Of a stretch of 35,161 bases of DNA, positions 28,367 through 34,231 are shown one piece after another (the stretch's first letter is position 1; each line of letters opens with the position of its first letter). Both the position numbers and the translations under genes were made by a program. Source of the DNA: Verrucomicrobiaceae bacterium E54 (GTDB taxonomy: Bacteria; Verrucomicrobiota; Verrucomicrobiia; Verrucomicrobiales; Akkermansiaceae); the NCBI GenBank assembly GCA_022548915.1, contig JAKZES010000055.1, positions 1-35,161 of the forward strand, written 5' to 3'. Under the pieces are notes generated by a model. It was given only the letters and a program-made list of their open reading frames with translations. It was not told where the DNA came from and searched no databases.

Positions 28367-28405
28367 TCCTCCGCAAATCGGAAGAGCCCTGAATCCTTGA
28401 ATCAA

Positions 28406-29461
28406 ATGATGAAAGCCCTGACGCTAACGGCGCTGCTCACCGCGCTCCTTCCCCTCCGTCTCCCGGCATCGCCACTGGATCAGGAAGGCTATCTGACCTT
28501 CCAGCTGGACAACGATCTTTTCGGCGGCAGTGATCGCGGTTACACCAACGGTGCCCGCCTGTCCTGGATCTCCGGCAGCCGGGACGTCGACAGCCTGCGC
28601 GGCCTCCATGCCTGGCTGCGTCGCCTGTCGGGTGACCCGGAGAGCTTCCGGGTTTTTCAGGCGGTCACCGGCTTCGAGGATCCGGACTCCATCGTCTACA
28701 ACCACGGCTTCTCGCTGACCCAGTTGATGTTCACGCCGGCCGATCCGCTCCCCTACGCCCAACCGCCCCTCCAGCGGCGCTACGCCGGATGGCTGGGATT
28801 GGGTATCTCCCTGCACGCCAAAACCGACCGCATCCTCAACTCGGTCGAGTTCGCGGTGGGAACGACCGGAGAGAATTCCTTTGCCGAGGTCACGCAGGAC
28901 TTCGTGCACAGTGCGACGGGCACCCGGAAGTTCAACGGTTGGGACGCCCAGGTGCCATCCGAGATCACCTTCGACCTGAGTTTCATCCAGAAACGCCGCC
29001 TCGATCTCCTCCAGCGTCGCTACGGTCCGATCCATGTGGATGGCATCGGCGAATGGGGAGTCAGGCTGGGAACCTTCCGGACAGCCGCCCACCTCGGGGG
29101 GATGCTCCGCGTCGGTTACAACCTGCCACCCGATTTCTCGGATCCGCGCCTCTCTCCGACTTCGTACTCCCACCGCTATTTCGGCTCGGCGATCGGTTAT
29201 GAAAGCGACTGGTCGTTGTTCCTGATTCTGGGCGCTGAGATCCGCGGGGTCGCCCACGATGCGACCCTCGACGGACCGGTCTTCCGGGACTTTGACACGG
29301 GCATCGAGCGTCGCCCATGGGTCGGGGAAGTCTACTGCGGGGCGGGCGTCCGTTACCGGGCCGTCGAACTCGGCTACGCCCACACCTGGAGAACCGAGGA
29401 ATACCGCACCCAAAGGGGACCGGCACAACTCGGGACGGTGACGGTCCGCTGGCGATTCTGA
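28406..29461 (+). CDS. LpxR-like lipid A 3'-O-deacylase (DUF2219), outer membrane
   Basis: The 351-residue protein starts at the ATG at 28406 or 28409 (MMKALTLTALLTALLPLRLPAS, a signal peptide); a TTG at 28397 is in frame. The mature protein begins with FQLDNDLFGGSDRGYTNGAR, where N36-D37 correspond to the Asn-Asp pair of the LpxR active site. Downstream, QDFVHSATGTRKFNGWDAQ holds H168, the candidate catalytic His, followed by the GWD and Gln typical of the family. Beta-strands run to the end, VTVRWRF, with a terminal Phe as expected for a barrel. It should remove acyl chains from lipid A in the outer membrane, which implies an LPS-bearing cell. Context suggests envelope remodelling under stress. 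Confidence 0.85.
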   Translation: MMKALTLTALLTALLPLRLPASPLDQEGYLTFQLDNDLFGGSDRGYTNGARLSWISGSRDVDSLRGLHAWLRRLSGDPESFRVFQAVTGFEDPDSIVYNHGFSLTQLMFTPADPLPYAQPPLQRRYAGWLGLGISLHAKTDRILNSVEFAVGTTGENSFAEVTQDFVHSATGTRKFNGWDAQVPSEITFDLSFIQKRRLDLLQRRYGPIHVDGIGEWGVRLGTFRTAAHLGGMLRVGYNLPPDFSDPRLSPTSYSHRYFGSAIGYESDWSLFLILGAEIRGVAHDATLDGPVFRDFDTGIERRPWVGEVYCGAGVRYRAVELGYAHTWRTEEYRTQRGPAQLGTVTVRWRF

Positions 29462-29558
29462 TCGGCGGGCTTCGCCCCAAGACCGGTGACCCTTTCAGGC
29501 GGCGACCTCGGTGGCCGCAGGCAAAGCCTTCGCAACCATTCCCGATCTTCTCAAAACC

Positions 29559-30324
29559 ATGGAACTCCAGACCCTCCTTATCACGACCTTCGTCGCCGCC
29601 GTTCTGGCGGATGTCTCAATGGTGTTCGGCGTCCTTCCATTCTATTTCGTCAAGAACATGTCCGACCGGGTGACCGGCATCATGGCCGCCGCGGCAGCGG
29701 GCATGATGGCGGCTGCGAGTCTGGTGCAACTCGTCGGGGAAGGTCTTGAAAAGGCCCCGGGAATCGAGGCTTGGGAAGTTTCGGCCGGCCTTGCCGCCGG
29801 GGCCCTGCTTTACGCGGCTGCCGCCCACTGGGTGCGTGACAACGAGCGCTTTGATCTGATGAACCTGCGCAAGAGCGGCGGGGCCCAGTCGCTGCTGATC
29901 GTCGCCGCCATGACGGTGCATTCCGCGCCGGAGGGAGTCGCGATCGGCGTGGCGTTTGGATCCAAGGATGTCGGTCTCGGCTATTCGGTGGTATCCGCCC
30001 TGGCCGTCCACAACATTCCGGAGGCCATCGCCATCACATTGGCGCTGCGTGCCAACGGAGTGCCCCGTCCTCCATTGCATCGGCTGGGCCCTGTTCACAA
30101 GTCTCCCGCAGCCGGTCTTCGCACCGCTCGCCGCCTGGTTCATCTGGCTCTTCGAACCACTCTTGCCGGCCGGCATGGGCTTCGCCGCCGGGGCCATGAC
30201 GTTCTTGGTGGTCGATGACCTGATCCCGGACGCATTGGAAAACACCTCCAAAACCCGCGTCGCAGCCGCCTTCATGGCCGGCGTCGTGTCGATGATCATC
30301 CTCGGCCGCCTCGTCGGATTGTAG
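29559..30324 (+). pseudogene. ZIP-family metal transporter, broken by a one-base frameshift
   Basis: The first part, from MELQTLLITTFVAAVLADVSMVFG at 29559, reads as a ZIP transporter with TVHSAPEGVAIGVAF and AVHNIPEAIAITLAL, whose His and Glu residues form the metal site of helices 4 and 5. At the CCCC run at 30063-30066 the frame shifts: removing one C gives VPVLHCIGWALFTSLPQPVFAP and then FIWLFEPLLPAGMGFAAGAMTF to the stop at 30324. The restored protein has about 255 residues, normal for a bacterial ZIP. The error may be in the sequence or may be a true frameshift or a slippage site. ZIP proteins import zinc or similar divalent metals. Confidence 0.8.
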
Positions 30325-31279: not shown

Positions 31280-34231
31280 ATGATCGCCGCCGACCATGAC
31301 GCAGAGGAATCCCTCCGTCTGCACTTCGAGCGGGACGAGCTTTCCGGCCTGCCCTTGATCGGGGAAGCACCGGCCGTGTTGGAGCTTACCCTGAACTTCC
31401 TTCCCCTGCCCCACTCGGTGGTGGAATTCGGGTGCGGCAAGAAGGCCTCGCTCATCCTCGACCTGCTCGCCCGGCACGGCGTGCCGGTCCACGGCCTCCA
31501 ACGCGGACTGATCCTCGAGGGTGACTTGTCACCGGACGCGCTTGAGGAGCAGGACCACCACGCCCGCCCCCGGTCGCTGCATGTCGCCAACCCGCTTTAC
31601 CGGCGCGCGTCGCTCGACGACGAGCCCCTGCGCCGGATGATGGAGGACGAGGGCTTCGGCATCGACGACGAGCAATCCATAATCCGGGCCGGAGACTTCG
31701 AACTGCACCACGTCGAAACGGTGGGGTTCGCGATCGCCCGCAGCCACGTCTATTCCATCGTCACCTTCTGGGACCCGGATGAAGACCAGACCGCTGACCT
31801 CGTGATCGATCCCACGCTCGACCGCGAGCGCATGTTCCCGGTGGCCGAGACCCGGGACTACCTCCACGGGCCGGAGGCGCTGGTGTTCTCCGCTCCGATG
31901 CTCGGCCGCTTCCGGCTGGACCCGGAACATCTGACCGACCGGCAAGGCCGCGAAGTGGATGCGTGGATTTCCGGACCGGGGCCCGTCGATCAACGACTCC
32001 GCGGGCTCGACGTAGCCCGCCACGCCGAACTGGTCCGGAAGCTCACCGGTGCGCCCGCCGGCTCGATCGGCGACCCGGAAACGTGGAGTTACGCCAACAA
32101 CATCCGCCCTTCCGGCGACCGGAACCACGACGACCTCCAGACGGAGGACACCGGCGTCGGCGAAGGGCTTCGCGCGCTCATGCGCAGGCTGCGGAACGAG
32201 CGCCCGGCCGCGTCGGGTCCCGAACTCGAAGAGAGCCGGCGGGGCCTCCACGACCGTGCGATCGAGATGGAGGTCAGGCGACGGATGACGCGCGACGCTG
32301 TGTGGTCCGGCAAGAAGCTCGAACCGCTGGCGAGGCTGGCCGCCGTGGTTTCCTCGCATCTCTCCCTCAAGGATCTGGCGAACTCGATCCGCGAGGGCCG
32401 CGAGTTGCCGCTCGACCCCGCCAATCCCGATCACCTCAAGCGCATGCGCGGGGCCGCCGTCCGGCTCCGCCAGCGAATCGAGCGGCTCGCCCTGGCCTCC
32501 ACCGACGAGGCCGGGACGATCAATGCCAGCGCGCTGACGCTCCCCTTCATGCGGGCGGCCGCGGAGACCATCGCGCAGATGAACCGCGCGGGCATGACGG
32601 TCTTCATCGACCGGGTCGGCAACCTTCACGGCCTCCACTTCCCGGCCGGCCCGCAAGAGCCGCCCGGGAAGCGGCAGCGCCCGCCGGGTGAATTCTGCGT
32701 CGACGCCATCTGCCACGCGTCGCACATCGACACCGTCAGTGACGCCGGCAAGCACGACGGCAGGCTCGGCGTGGTGGCCGGCATCGAGATCGCGCAGACC
32801 GTGCACGACCTCAAGAGCTACTTCGAAGTGGCCTTTCCACGCCACCCGGGCCGGGGAAACCTGATGGTCACCGCCTTCATCGGCGAGGAGATGACCTATT
32901 CCGGCGAGGGGGTGGTGATGCCCGGCAGCTCCGCCGTTGCCGGCCATGCCCCGGTCGAATCCGTCCACCGCATGACCAATGCCGCCGGCGAACGATTCAT
33001 CGACGGCCTGCTCGAAATGCTGCGGTATCTCGAGGAGCGCCGCCGGAACGGCGACATTCACTTCGAAAACCGTTTTCCCGCAGACGGTGACTCCGGAGAA
33101 TGGATCGACGCCTGCCCGCGACCCGGGGAGTTTTTCACGCCGCACACCTACGAACGGCACATCGAACAGGGCCCCGAGCTCAACCGGGGCGGCGTGCCGC
33201 TGGTGCTCGTGGACCGGGTCATGGGCATCCGGCAGGAGGATGTTTCCATCCATGGGCGTTTCGCCGGAGACGCGGCCCTCGAGTTCGGCCTCAGGCTCCG
33301 CGAACTCGTCCTGCAGCCCGACTACAGGCAAATCCGGGTGACCGTCGGCATCGTTAAGACGACCGAAACGGGCAGCGAACGGCAACCCGCCTCGGCCTGG
33401 CGATGTCAGCTCCGGGGCCGGGAGAACCACGCCGGATCGACCCCGACCCGCGACCGCCGGGACCCCGTTGTCGCCGCGGCCCGCCTCGCCCGGGAATTCC
33501 GCCGTCGCGCGGGCCGGACCAACCCGGTGGCGGGCGATCTCGAGGTCCGCCCCGGCACGAACCGAAACGTGATTCCCGGGACCGTCGCACTGACGCTCGG
33601 GACGGACGACGACCTCACGCAGGCCGACCAGGAGCACCTCCGGAAACGGCTCACGGACTTCATCAGCCTGACCCTCGGACGGGATGTGGACGGAGGGGGC
33701 GAGGGCGTCGTCCTCGACGAACTTCGCCGGGTCCGGACGGTGCGCAACCCCGGGCAGGCTCGCCTCAGCATCGATGTTCGCGGTCCCCGTCGCTCCCTAC
33801 TCCGCCGCTTCCGATCGGAGATCCGTGACCTGCGGGACCGGCTTTCCGACGAATTCGGCGTCGAGCTTTCCCGCGAGACCGTGCAGCATTTCGAGCCGCA
33901 ATCACTCGCTGAGTCCGGCCAGGTCCTCCAACTCGAACGGAGCTACGGCGGCAGCCACAGCCCGACCGAGACGGAAATGGCGAGCGACCTGCTGCGCGGC
34001 ACCCTGATCCAACTCGCGGTAACGGCAGATTTCCAGCGCTCCATCCGCCCCCCGGAAGCGGGCCTCCGCGCGATGGCCCTGGAACGCGTTCCGGAACCGT
34101 GGTGCCAACGGCTCCCGGGCTTCGAGTCGGGGGCTCTCCACGACACCTGCAATATCGCCCGGTCAACCGCCCGTGAAAGCGACGAGACCTCTGAAGCCGC
34201 GACCCCGACCGACGGCGCGCAACATGGCTGA
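31280..34231 (+). CDS. Putative papain-fold (transglutaminase-like) domain fused to M20-family amidohydrolase
   Basis: The 983-residue protein has no signal peptide. Residues about 1-215 look like a transglutaminase-like cysteine hydrolase: FGCGKKASLILDLLARHGVPVHGLQRG with C52, SHVYSIVTFWDPDE with H156 and LVIDPTL with D177 form a candidate Cys-His-Asp triad with normal spacing. Residues about 240-410 are helical and unrecognised. Residues about 393-960 are an M20 amidohydrolase of the N-carbamoyl amino-acid/allantoate type: SHIDTV (H482), KHDGRLG (D493), FIGEEM (E536/E537), ERHIEQGP (H627), RENHAGSTPTRDRRDPVVAAA and GALHDTCNIA (H954), so all metal ligands are there. The AKR lies 23 bp upstream; the antiporter overlaps its end by 8 bases. 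The M20 half is certain, the N-terminal assignment is inference. Confidence 0.85.
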   Translation: MIAADHDAEESLRLHFERDELSGLPLIGEAPAVLELTLNFLPLPHSVVEFGCGKKASLILDLLARHGVPVHGLQRGLILEGDLSPDALEEQDHHARPRSLHVANPLYRRASLDDEPLRRMMEDEGFGIDDEQSIIRAGDFELHHVETVGFAIARSHVYSIVTFWDPDEDQTADLVIDPTLDRERMFPVAETRDYLHGPEALVFSAPMLGRFRLDPEHLTDRQGREVDAWISGPGPVDQRLRGLDVARHAELVRKLTGAPAGSIGDPETWSYANNIRPSGDRNHDDLQTEDTGVGEGLRALMRRLRNERPAASGPELEESRRGLHDRAIEMEVRRRMTRDAVWSGKKLEPLARLAAVVSSHLSLKDLANSIREGRELPLDPANPDHLKRMRGAAVRLRQRIERLALASTDEAGTINASALTLPFMRAAAETIAQMNRAGMTVFIDRVGNLHGLHFPAGPQEPPGKRQRPPGEFCVDAICHASHIDTVSDAGKHDGRLGVVAGIEIAQTVHDLKSYFEVAFPRHPGRGNLMVTAFIGEEMTYSGEGVVMPGSSAVAGHAPVESVHRMTNAAGERFIDGLLEMLRYLEERRRNGDIHFENRFPADGDSGEWIDACPRPGEFFTPHTYERHIEQGPELNRGGVPLVLVDRVMGIRQEDVSIHGRFAGDAALEFGLRLRELVLQPDYRQIRVTVGIVKTTETGSERQPASAWRCQLRGRENHAGSTPTRDRRDPVVAAARLAREFRRRAGRTNPVAGDLEVRPGTNRNVIPGTVALTLGTDDDLTQADQEHLRKRLTDFISLTLGRDVDGGGEGVVLDELRRVRTVRNPGQARLSIDVRGPRRSLLRRFRSEIRDLRDRLSDEFGVELSRETVQHFEPQSLAESGQVLQLERSYGGSHSPTETEMASDLLRGTLIQLAVTADFQRSIRPPEAGLRAMALERVPEPWCQRLPGFESGALHDTCNIARSTARESDETSEAATPTDGAQHG

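Follow-up and report, generated by a model that had tools for sequence, protein, structure and literature searches.

A conserved, unnamed family fusing a Cys-His-Asp domain, probably glutaminase- or transglutaminase-like, to an M20 carbamoylase-type hydrolase with a doubled lid and an apparent segment swap

Several described proteins resemble one or other part of the subject of this work, a 983-residue fusion protein encoded on a 35,161-nucleotide stretch of Verrucomicrobiaceae bacterium E54 (contig JAKZES010000055.1 of assembly GCA_022548915.1; the whole stretch is hereafter the window). The hydantoinase/carbamoylase-type M20 hydrolases of TIGR01879, including AllC and N-carbamoyl-beta-alanine amidohydrolase, have one lid per chain. 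In carboxypeptidase G2 an arginine of one subunit meets a histidine and an asparagine of the other, whereas in PepD, the aminoacyl-histidine dipeptidase, all three lie in one monomer (excerpt of PMC6271292); in the R. radiobacter enzyme both monomers contribute residues to the ligand site and Arg291 binds the carboxylate (excerpt of PMC10952681). Protein-glutaminase (PF18626, the family named in the excerpt of PMC10318531; PDB 2zk9 and 3a54) has the catalytic triad Cys156, His197 and Asp217 (excerpt of PMC4214742). A fusion with an M20 hydrolase is also described, as PRK13799 (NF010373), which joins an unknown domain to an N-carbamoyl-L-amino acid hydrolase.

The protein from E54 compares with each of these in part. 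With the TIGR01879 family it has in common the metal ligands, the Glu-Glu pair and the HIEQGP, NHAG, NRNV and DxR motifs, but it falls short of the cut-off of 204 bits, scoring 112.4 bits as a whole protein and 115.1 with the M20 half taken alone; its lid is double and nested instead of single, its C-terminal segments are apparently swapped, and 392 extra residues stand in front. PRK13799 resembles it in being fused to the same M20 type, and its model matched all 13 members of the family described below; the match, however, reaches 55 bits against a cut-off of 1087, the model has 591 positions, and the best stretch lies in the lid part of the M20 half. We show that the joined Cys-His-Asp domain and M20 hydrolase constitute a conserved, unnamed fusion family, probably an uncharacterised enzyme with two active sites in one chain. 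The features of the gene, all on the forward strand of the window, are as follows.

31280..34231, +, whole fusion gene, 983 codons plus stop; a single open frame with relatives over most of its length
31280..31945, +, N-domain, residues 1-222, with Cys-His-Asp, probably protein-glutaminase/transglutaminase-like (triad in 13/13 rows; weak PF18626 and PDB glutaminase matches)
31433..31435, +, codon of Cys52, proposed nucleophile, in GCGKK (alignment conservation)
31745..31747, +, codon of His156, proposed catalytic histidine, in R[ST]H (alignment conservation)
31808..31810, +, codon of Asp177, proposed catalytic aspartate, in DP (alignment conservation)
31946..32455, +, conserved region, residues 223-392, with GDPxxWxYxNN and TGxG (alignment; no named relative)
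32456..33229, +, first part of the M20 catalytic domain, residues 393-650, with H482, D493, E536, E537 and H627 (NCBIfam, alignment)
33230..33385, +, residues 651-702, first beta-alpha-beta unit of the outer lid, without a HAG counterpart (model, structure matches)
33386..33739, +, residues 703-820, inner lid inserted in the outer lid, with H717 (NHAG) and N763 (NRNV) (profiles, model, structure matches)
33740..33886, +, residues 821-869, second unit of the outer lid, with R834 (DxR) (profiles, model, structure matches)
33887..34057, +, residues 870-926, catalytic-domain segment B with GGSHSPTE (H893), apparently displaced forward (motif order)
34058..34174, +, residues 927-965, catalytic-domain segment A with SGALHDT (H954), apparently displaced to the C terminus (motif order)

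The frame is real and coding. In all 24 blocks of 40 codons through residue 960 the GC content is lowest at the second codon position, and that of the third position lies between 0.72 and 0.97; the pattern is lost only in the last partial block, from residue 961 on. Because the coding pattern is kept over this length, the open frame is no product of chance. Its extent and the positions of the nine catalytic candidates named in the initial annotation (C52, H156, D177, H482, D493, E536, E537, H627 and H954) were borne out. The family comprises 13 records including the window (12 genomes and one viral-database contig), with members at 38-44% identity, among them ones from Spirochaetaceae, Bacteroidia and Lacimicrobium, and all 13 carry both halves as far as their sequence extends. 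Two members (L118 and L130) reach contig ends and L127 is frameshifted near its end, so that counts below refer to the covering rows of the alignment. The frameshift of the latter (entry L127/G1463 and L129) lies a short way ahead of the SHxPxE segment; elsewhere the frame is open.

In the N-domain C52, H156 and D177 are identical in 13/13 rows, as are R75, R154, W164 and D165, and the GCGKK around C52 is kept throughout. The triad that the initial annotation had picked out by eye thus withstands the invariance check set there. A papain/transglutaminase-like fold is likely. The nearest named relative appears to be protein-glutaminase (PF18626), which itself belongs to the papain/transglutaminase-like enzymes, and not a classical transglutaminase. 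As in protein-glutaminase, the order is Cys-His-Asp, the HV...DP motif of the His-Asp stretch is in register and the His-Asp distance is similar (21 residues versus 20). Matches to PF18626 and to protein-glutaminases in the PDB came from three methods, none significant alone: in Pfam, Gln_deamidase_2 (PF18626) matched one of the 13 members (E 0.043, below the gathering score), and Foldseek ranked protein-glutaminase first, although the model of the N-domain is of low confidence (mean predicted local distance difference test score, pLDDT, of 38), making its ranks a hint only. In that model C52 is the first residue of a helix, 52-65.

A good deal weighs against this assignment, and with every match weak and the model poor the fold is not proven. 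The window protein differs from protein-glutaminase in its fusion to an M20 hydrolase, in its GCGKK and in the distance from Cys to His, which is 104 residues versus 41. Residues 1-392 matched neither Pfam nor NCBIfam within an E of 1, and a profile of the N-domain drew no PDB hits within an E of 10. Noise of like size arose in the whole-protein Pfam search (DUF6862 at 0.015 in 2/13 members, Med15_N at 0.057) and in PHROGs (an unnamed family at 0.034). In pairwise comparisons by hhalign with six single glutaminases (four of the ten PF18626 loci, L139, L140, L141 and L143, were left out, having been missed by a motif filter), only L136 and L142 aligned the His-Asp stretch, the other four being out of register; against 300 decoys, one beat L136, three beat L142 and nine beat L137, and the remaining three glutaminases scored as ordinary. 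The glutaminase alignment score of 32.4 carries no decoy control, and C52 is placed only by a lower-ranked alignment, whose score of 14.1 equals the decoy mean.

In a rival reading, along the lines proposed in the initial annotation, the N-domain would be a protease or isopeptidase of the classical transglutaminase-core kind, cutting a peptide or isopeptide bond whose product the M20 half then trims; the catalytic order would be the same. Locus L143, fetched for its PF18626 match, also encodes a protein that from its motifs we take to be of the transglutaminase-core type; used as a comparator, its Cys loop aligns with C52 in register. The corresponding hhalign score (16.5) nevertheless lies within one standard deviation of the decoy mean (14.4, standard deviation 2.5), no member of the 13 matches Transglut_core (PF01841) at E up to 10, and Foldseek, albeit with the poor model, favours protein-glutaminase; we therefore regard this alternative as unlikely. 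Somewhat less probable still is that only the M20 half is enzymatic, the N-domain and the conserved region behind it forming a binding or regulatory module in which the cysteine serves another purpose. The absence of a PDB profile match and the poor model leave room for such a module, but a scaffold need not keep all of Cys, His and Asp in every member, and the histidine and aspartate are in register with a known triad. Residues 223-392, initially regarded as an unrecognised linker of 170 residues, do lack a named relative within the same Pfam and NCBIfam limits; they are, however, no mere spacer, since G264, D265, P266, W269, Y271, N273, N274, T291, G292 and G294 are identical in 13/13 rows.

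The C-terminal half is, judged from its sequence, an M20 hydrolase of the carbamoylase type. Pfam gave only a sub-threshold M20_dimer match for the 983-residue protein. In NCBIfam, models of the hydantoinase/carbamoylase type matched with a best E of 1e-33, but the matches were broken into several pieces and fell far short of the cut-offs; the N-carbamyl-glutamate hydrolase ErtE is among the M20 matches. A PDB profile search returned 18 sequences, named as carbamoylase, beta-alanine synthase, allantoate/ureidoglycolate hydrolase, amidase, amidohydrolase/peptidase or deacylase. H482 and D493 are identical in 13/13 rows, E536, E537, H627, H717, N763 and R834 in all 12 covering rows, which also keep HIEQGP, and H893 and H954 in all 11. 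In known structures the counterparts of H482, D493, E536, E537, H627 and H893 serve as metal ligands and catalytic glutamate, and the histidine of SHxPxE is the last metal ligand. The ligands listed in the initial annotation are conserved, but the last of them was misassigned: H954 belongs to SGALHDT, which corresponds to the SGA[G/A]HD loop of ordinary relatives, whereas H893 belongs to GGSHSPTE, which corresponds to SHxPxE, and because these two segments are reversed it is H893 that matches the last ligand.

The reversal, overlooked initially as was the doubled lid, indicates that the last two segments of the M20 half are swapped with respect to ordinary relatives, in which the SGA loop comes before SHxPxE. 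SHxPxE precedes SGAxHD in 11/11 covering family rows. Among 28 distinct comparison M20 open reading frames, two lack SHxPxE (one apparently in the wrong frame) and were excluded; the other 26 all have the ordinary order, three of them with a variant loop (AYHDSL). Profiles of both segments match 16 of the comparison frames, each time with the SGA loop first and SHxPxE second, at poor E-values (0.02-5) at which the matched letters are the motifs themselves. The pattern search described below selects for the swap, but later members came from a whole-protein profile or from other peptide patterns, and these also show it where their sequence covers it. Against the swap stands that the catalytic domain and both segments are not confidently modelled, and the case is accordingly one of motif order. 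That the M20 fold can tolerate permutation follows from PDB 7m6u, a designed, circularly permuted carboxypeptidase G2 according to its title.

For the lid, an AlphaFold model built from five rows is weak overall (mean pLDDT 49), with residues 650-868 mostly at 62-87 per ten-residue block, and has four beta-alpha-beta units there (652-694, 705-757, 768-817 and 826-866). With VIA-align, residues within 649-869 superpose on single M20 lids (96 residues of 8xzc at 2.3 Å; 91 residues of carboxypeptidase G2, 6xj5, at 2.2 Å), and residues 704-820 alone fit ferredoxin-like folds, which we read as one lid nested in the other. In ordinary M20 proteins the profiles of units 3 and 4 hit one common stretch (best E of 8e-4 and 2e-6, respectively), and that of unit 2 falls on the HAG stretch; unit 1, counting against the scheme, finds no useful counterpart by sequence in ordinary lids (E 0.97 at best). 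In 12/12 covering rows each copy holds part of the key motifs: the inner lid has NHAG and NRNV, the outer DxR. With the lid doubled and nested, the histidine, asparagine and arginine that dimeric relatives share between subunits lie in one chain, and an internal pseudo-dimer is the simplest reading.

The double lid also raises the question of whether the M20 half is an X-His dipeptidase of the PepD type rather than a carbamoylase. The whole of it fits the lids of X-His dipeptidases (2qyv, 164 residues at 3.4 Å; 3mru, 161 at 3.3 Å), H717, N763 and R834 lie in one chain as in PepD, and their chain order, His, Asn, Arg, is that given for PepD in the excerpt of PMC6271292, which mentions no cysteine domain in PepD. 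The sequence matches fall instead to the carbamoylase/allantoate group, with no PepD model among the NCBIfam matches; HIEQGP is retained in the 12 covering rows, and the apparent segment swap is a further difference from PepD. We consider a PepD-type activity improbable, to about the same degree as a purely binding N-domain.

Taken together, the evidence makes it an evenly balanced proposition that the protein is a bifunctional amidohydrolase, with a glutaminase-like N-domain and a double-lid, segment-swapped M20 half catalysing two steps. It is probably cytoplasmic, as is suggested by the lack of any signal sequence apparent by eye at the N terminus. Acting like protein-glutaminase, the N-domain would use Cys52, assisted by His156 and Asp177, to attack a carboxamide, forming a thioester and releasing ammonia. 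The product, an N-carbamoyl or N-acyl amino acid, would then be hydrolysed at a di-metal site of H482, D493, E537, H627 and H893 with E536 as general base, roles that we assume from the family. Binding of the product's carboxylate would fall to R834 in the outer lid together with H717 and N763 in the inner lid, and a single chain would thereby supply the composite site for which dimeric carbamoylases need two subunits. The two steps would probably be sequential on one metabolite, and a glutaminase-like N-half together with ErtE among the M20 matches suggests a glutamine-derived substrate; our guess is a compound of the kind of N-carbamoyl-glutamine or N-acyl-glutamine, which both halves could accommodate. 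More tentative is the full proposal of a protein-glutaminase-like cysteine amidase passing its product to a single-chain, pseudo-dimeric and segment-swapped carbamoylase, with two consecutive nitrogen-releasing hydrolyses of one metabolite; we hold this to be possible.

The family is small and patchy, with the fusion in a few unrelated bacteria, which argues for a real enzyme. Scanning genome_contigs and viral_contigs directly with the window protein yielded no relatives, and in viral_contigs an alignment steered by two altered copies of that protein yielded none either. A DNA pattern for the reversed motif order (SHSPTE before SGALHDT), the source of the first relatives, matches the window once; slightly relaxed, it gave 66 stretches in genome_contigs, of which tblastn showed three to encode true relatives, and a slightly stricter form gave none in viral_contigs. 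These three, from a Spirochaetaceae metagenome-assembled genome (MAG), a Bacteroidia MAG and Lacimicrobium alkaliphilum, proved near full-length matches in whole-genome searches (40-43% identity). Profile searches, in counts that include the starting genomes and repeat earlier finds, matched 5/198 genomes in the phylum of the Spirochaetaceae MAG, 6/30 in the order around genome G1023, 1/296 in the phylum of the Bacteroidia MAG, and 1/321 and 4/177 in the class and family of Lacimicrobium. One further member lies on an IMG/VR contig (L121), at about 6.4-10.1 kb, where it adjoins genes matching phage families (an HNH endonuclease and unknowns) and may border or ride on a prophage.

Closer to home, 22 of 97 genomes of window relatives matched, E54 included; among the matches listed, only that of the window reaches the N-half proper (residues 1-373), the others covering M20 parts. 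A search for the same fusion in other genomes of the Planctomycetes-Verrucomicrobia-Chlamydiae group had been proposed initially; in 387 phylum and 188 class genomes (overlapping draws, E54 included) the N-half has no credible relative. The phylum draw yielded four weak matches besides the window and the class draw none; L033, L034 and L036 were dropped, being proteins that we take to be pyrophosphatase-like, and L035 contains internal stops. Plasmids gave no place covering 80% of the query and no N-half match. A 12-row tree gives the window a long branch (1.88) and does not resolve where it belongs. An assembly artefact joining two adjacent genes or frames by chance, for which the draft state of the genome (255 contigs) and the lack of a credible second copy in those draws might speak, is already refuted by the homologues, the same fusion being present in 12 other records, and deserves practically no credence. 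Besides the fusion, the E54 genome holds a further enzyme of this kind, encoded by an ordinary hydantoinase/carbamoylase-type M20 gene (G000:C233:127483-128676; 395 bits, over the cut-off).

The neighbouring genes in the window encode an aldo/keto reductase, a Na/Ca exchanger, a ZIP-like protein (below the Pfam cut-off), LpxR, a MauE/glutaredoxin-like protein, a metallo-beta-lactamase-rhodanese and a multicopper oxidase. The unit of aldo/keto reductase, hydrolase and antiporter to which the initial annotation assigned the gene is present, but it is not conserved: none of the seven neighbours (for ZIP, the 5' part only) gave a tblastn match at 1e-3 in the flanks of the 12 homologue loci, which deprives the proposed two-step reaction of any pathway hint. 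Clustering found neighbours common to homologue loci mainly among those of spirochaete lineage, as expected of close relatives; it used a greedy gene caller that missed the aldo/keto reductase gene, and the window neighbours were retested by tblastn. With no conserved neighbourhood the fusion gene looks self-sufficient. The LpxR-type outer-membrane protein (28397-29461, +; E 2e-81) is unrelated to the fusion, and the ZIP-like metal transporter gene (29511-30324, +) appears to have its second half split between two frames, which may reflect an assembly error or a broken gene.

No description of this fusion was found in the open-access literature searched, and the two catalytic classes that it joins were not found paired there. 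The M20 half would build within one chain an active site that otherwise takes a dimer, the catalytic residues being spread over two copies of the lid, and would be a natural case of a segment swap inside the M20 catalytic domain. The substrate of the fusion could reveal an unrecognised step of nitrogen metabolism.
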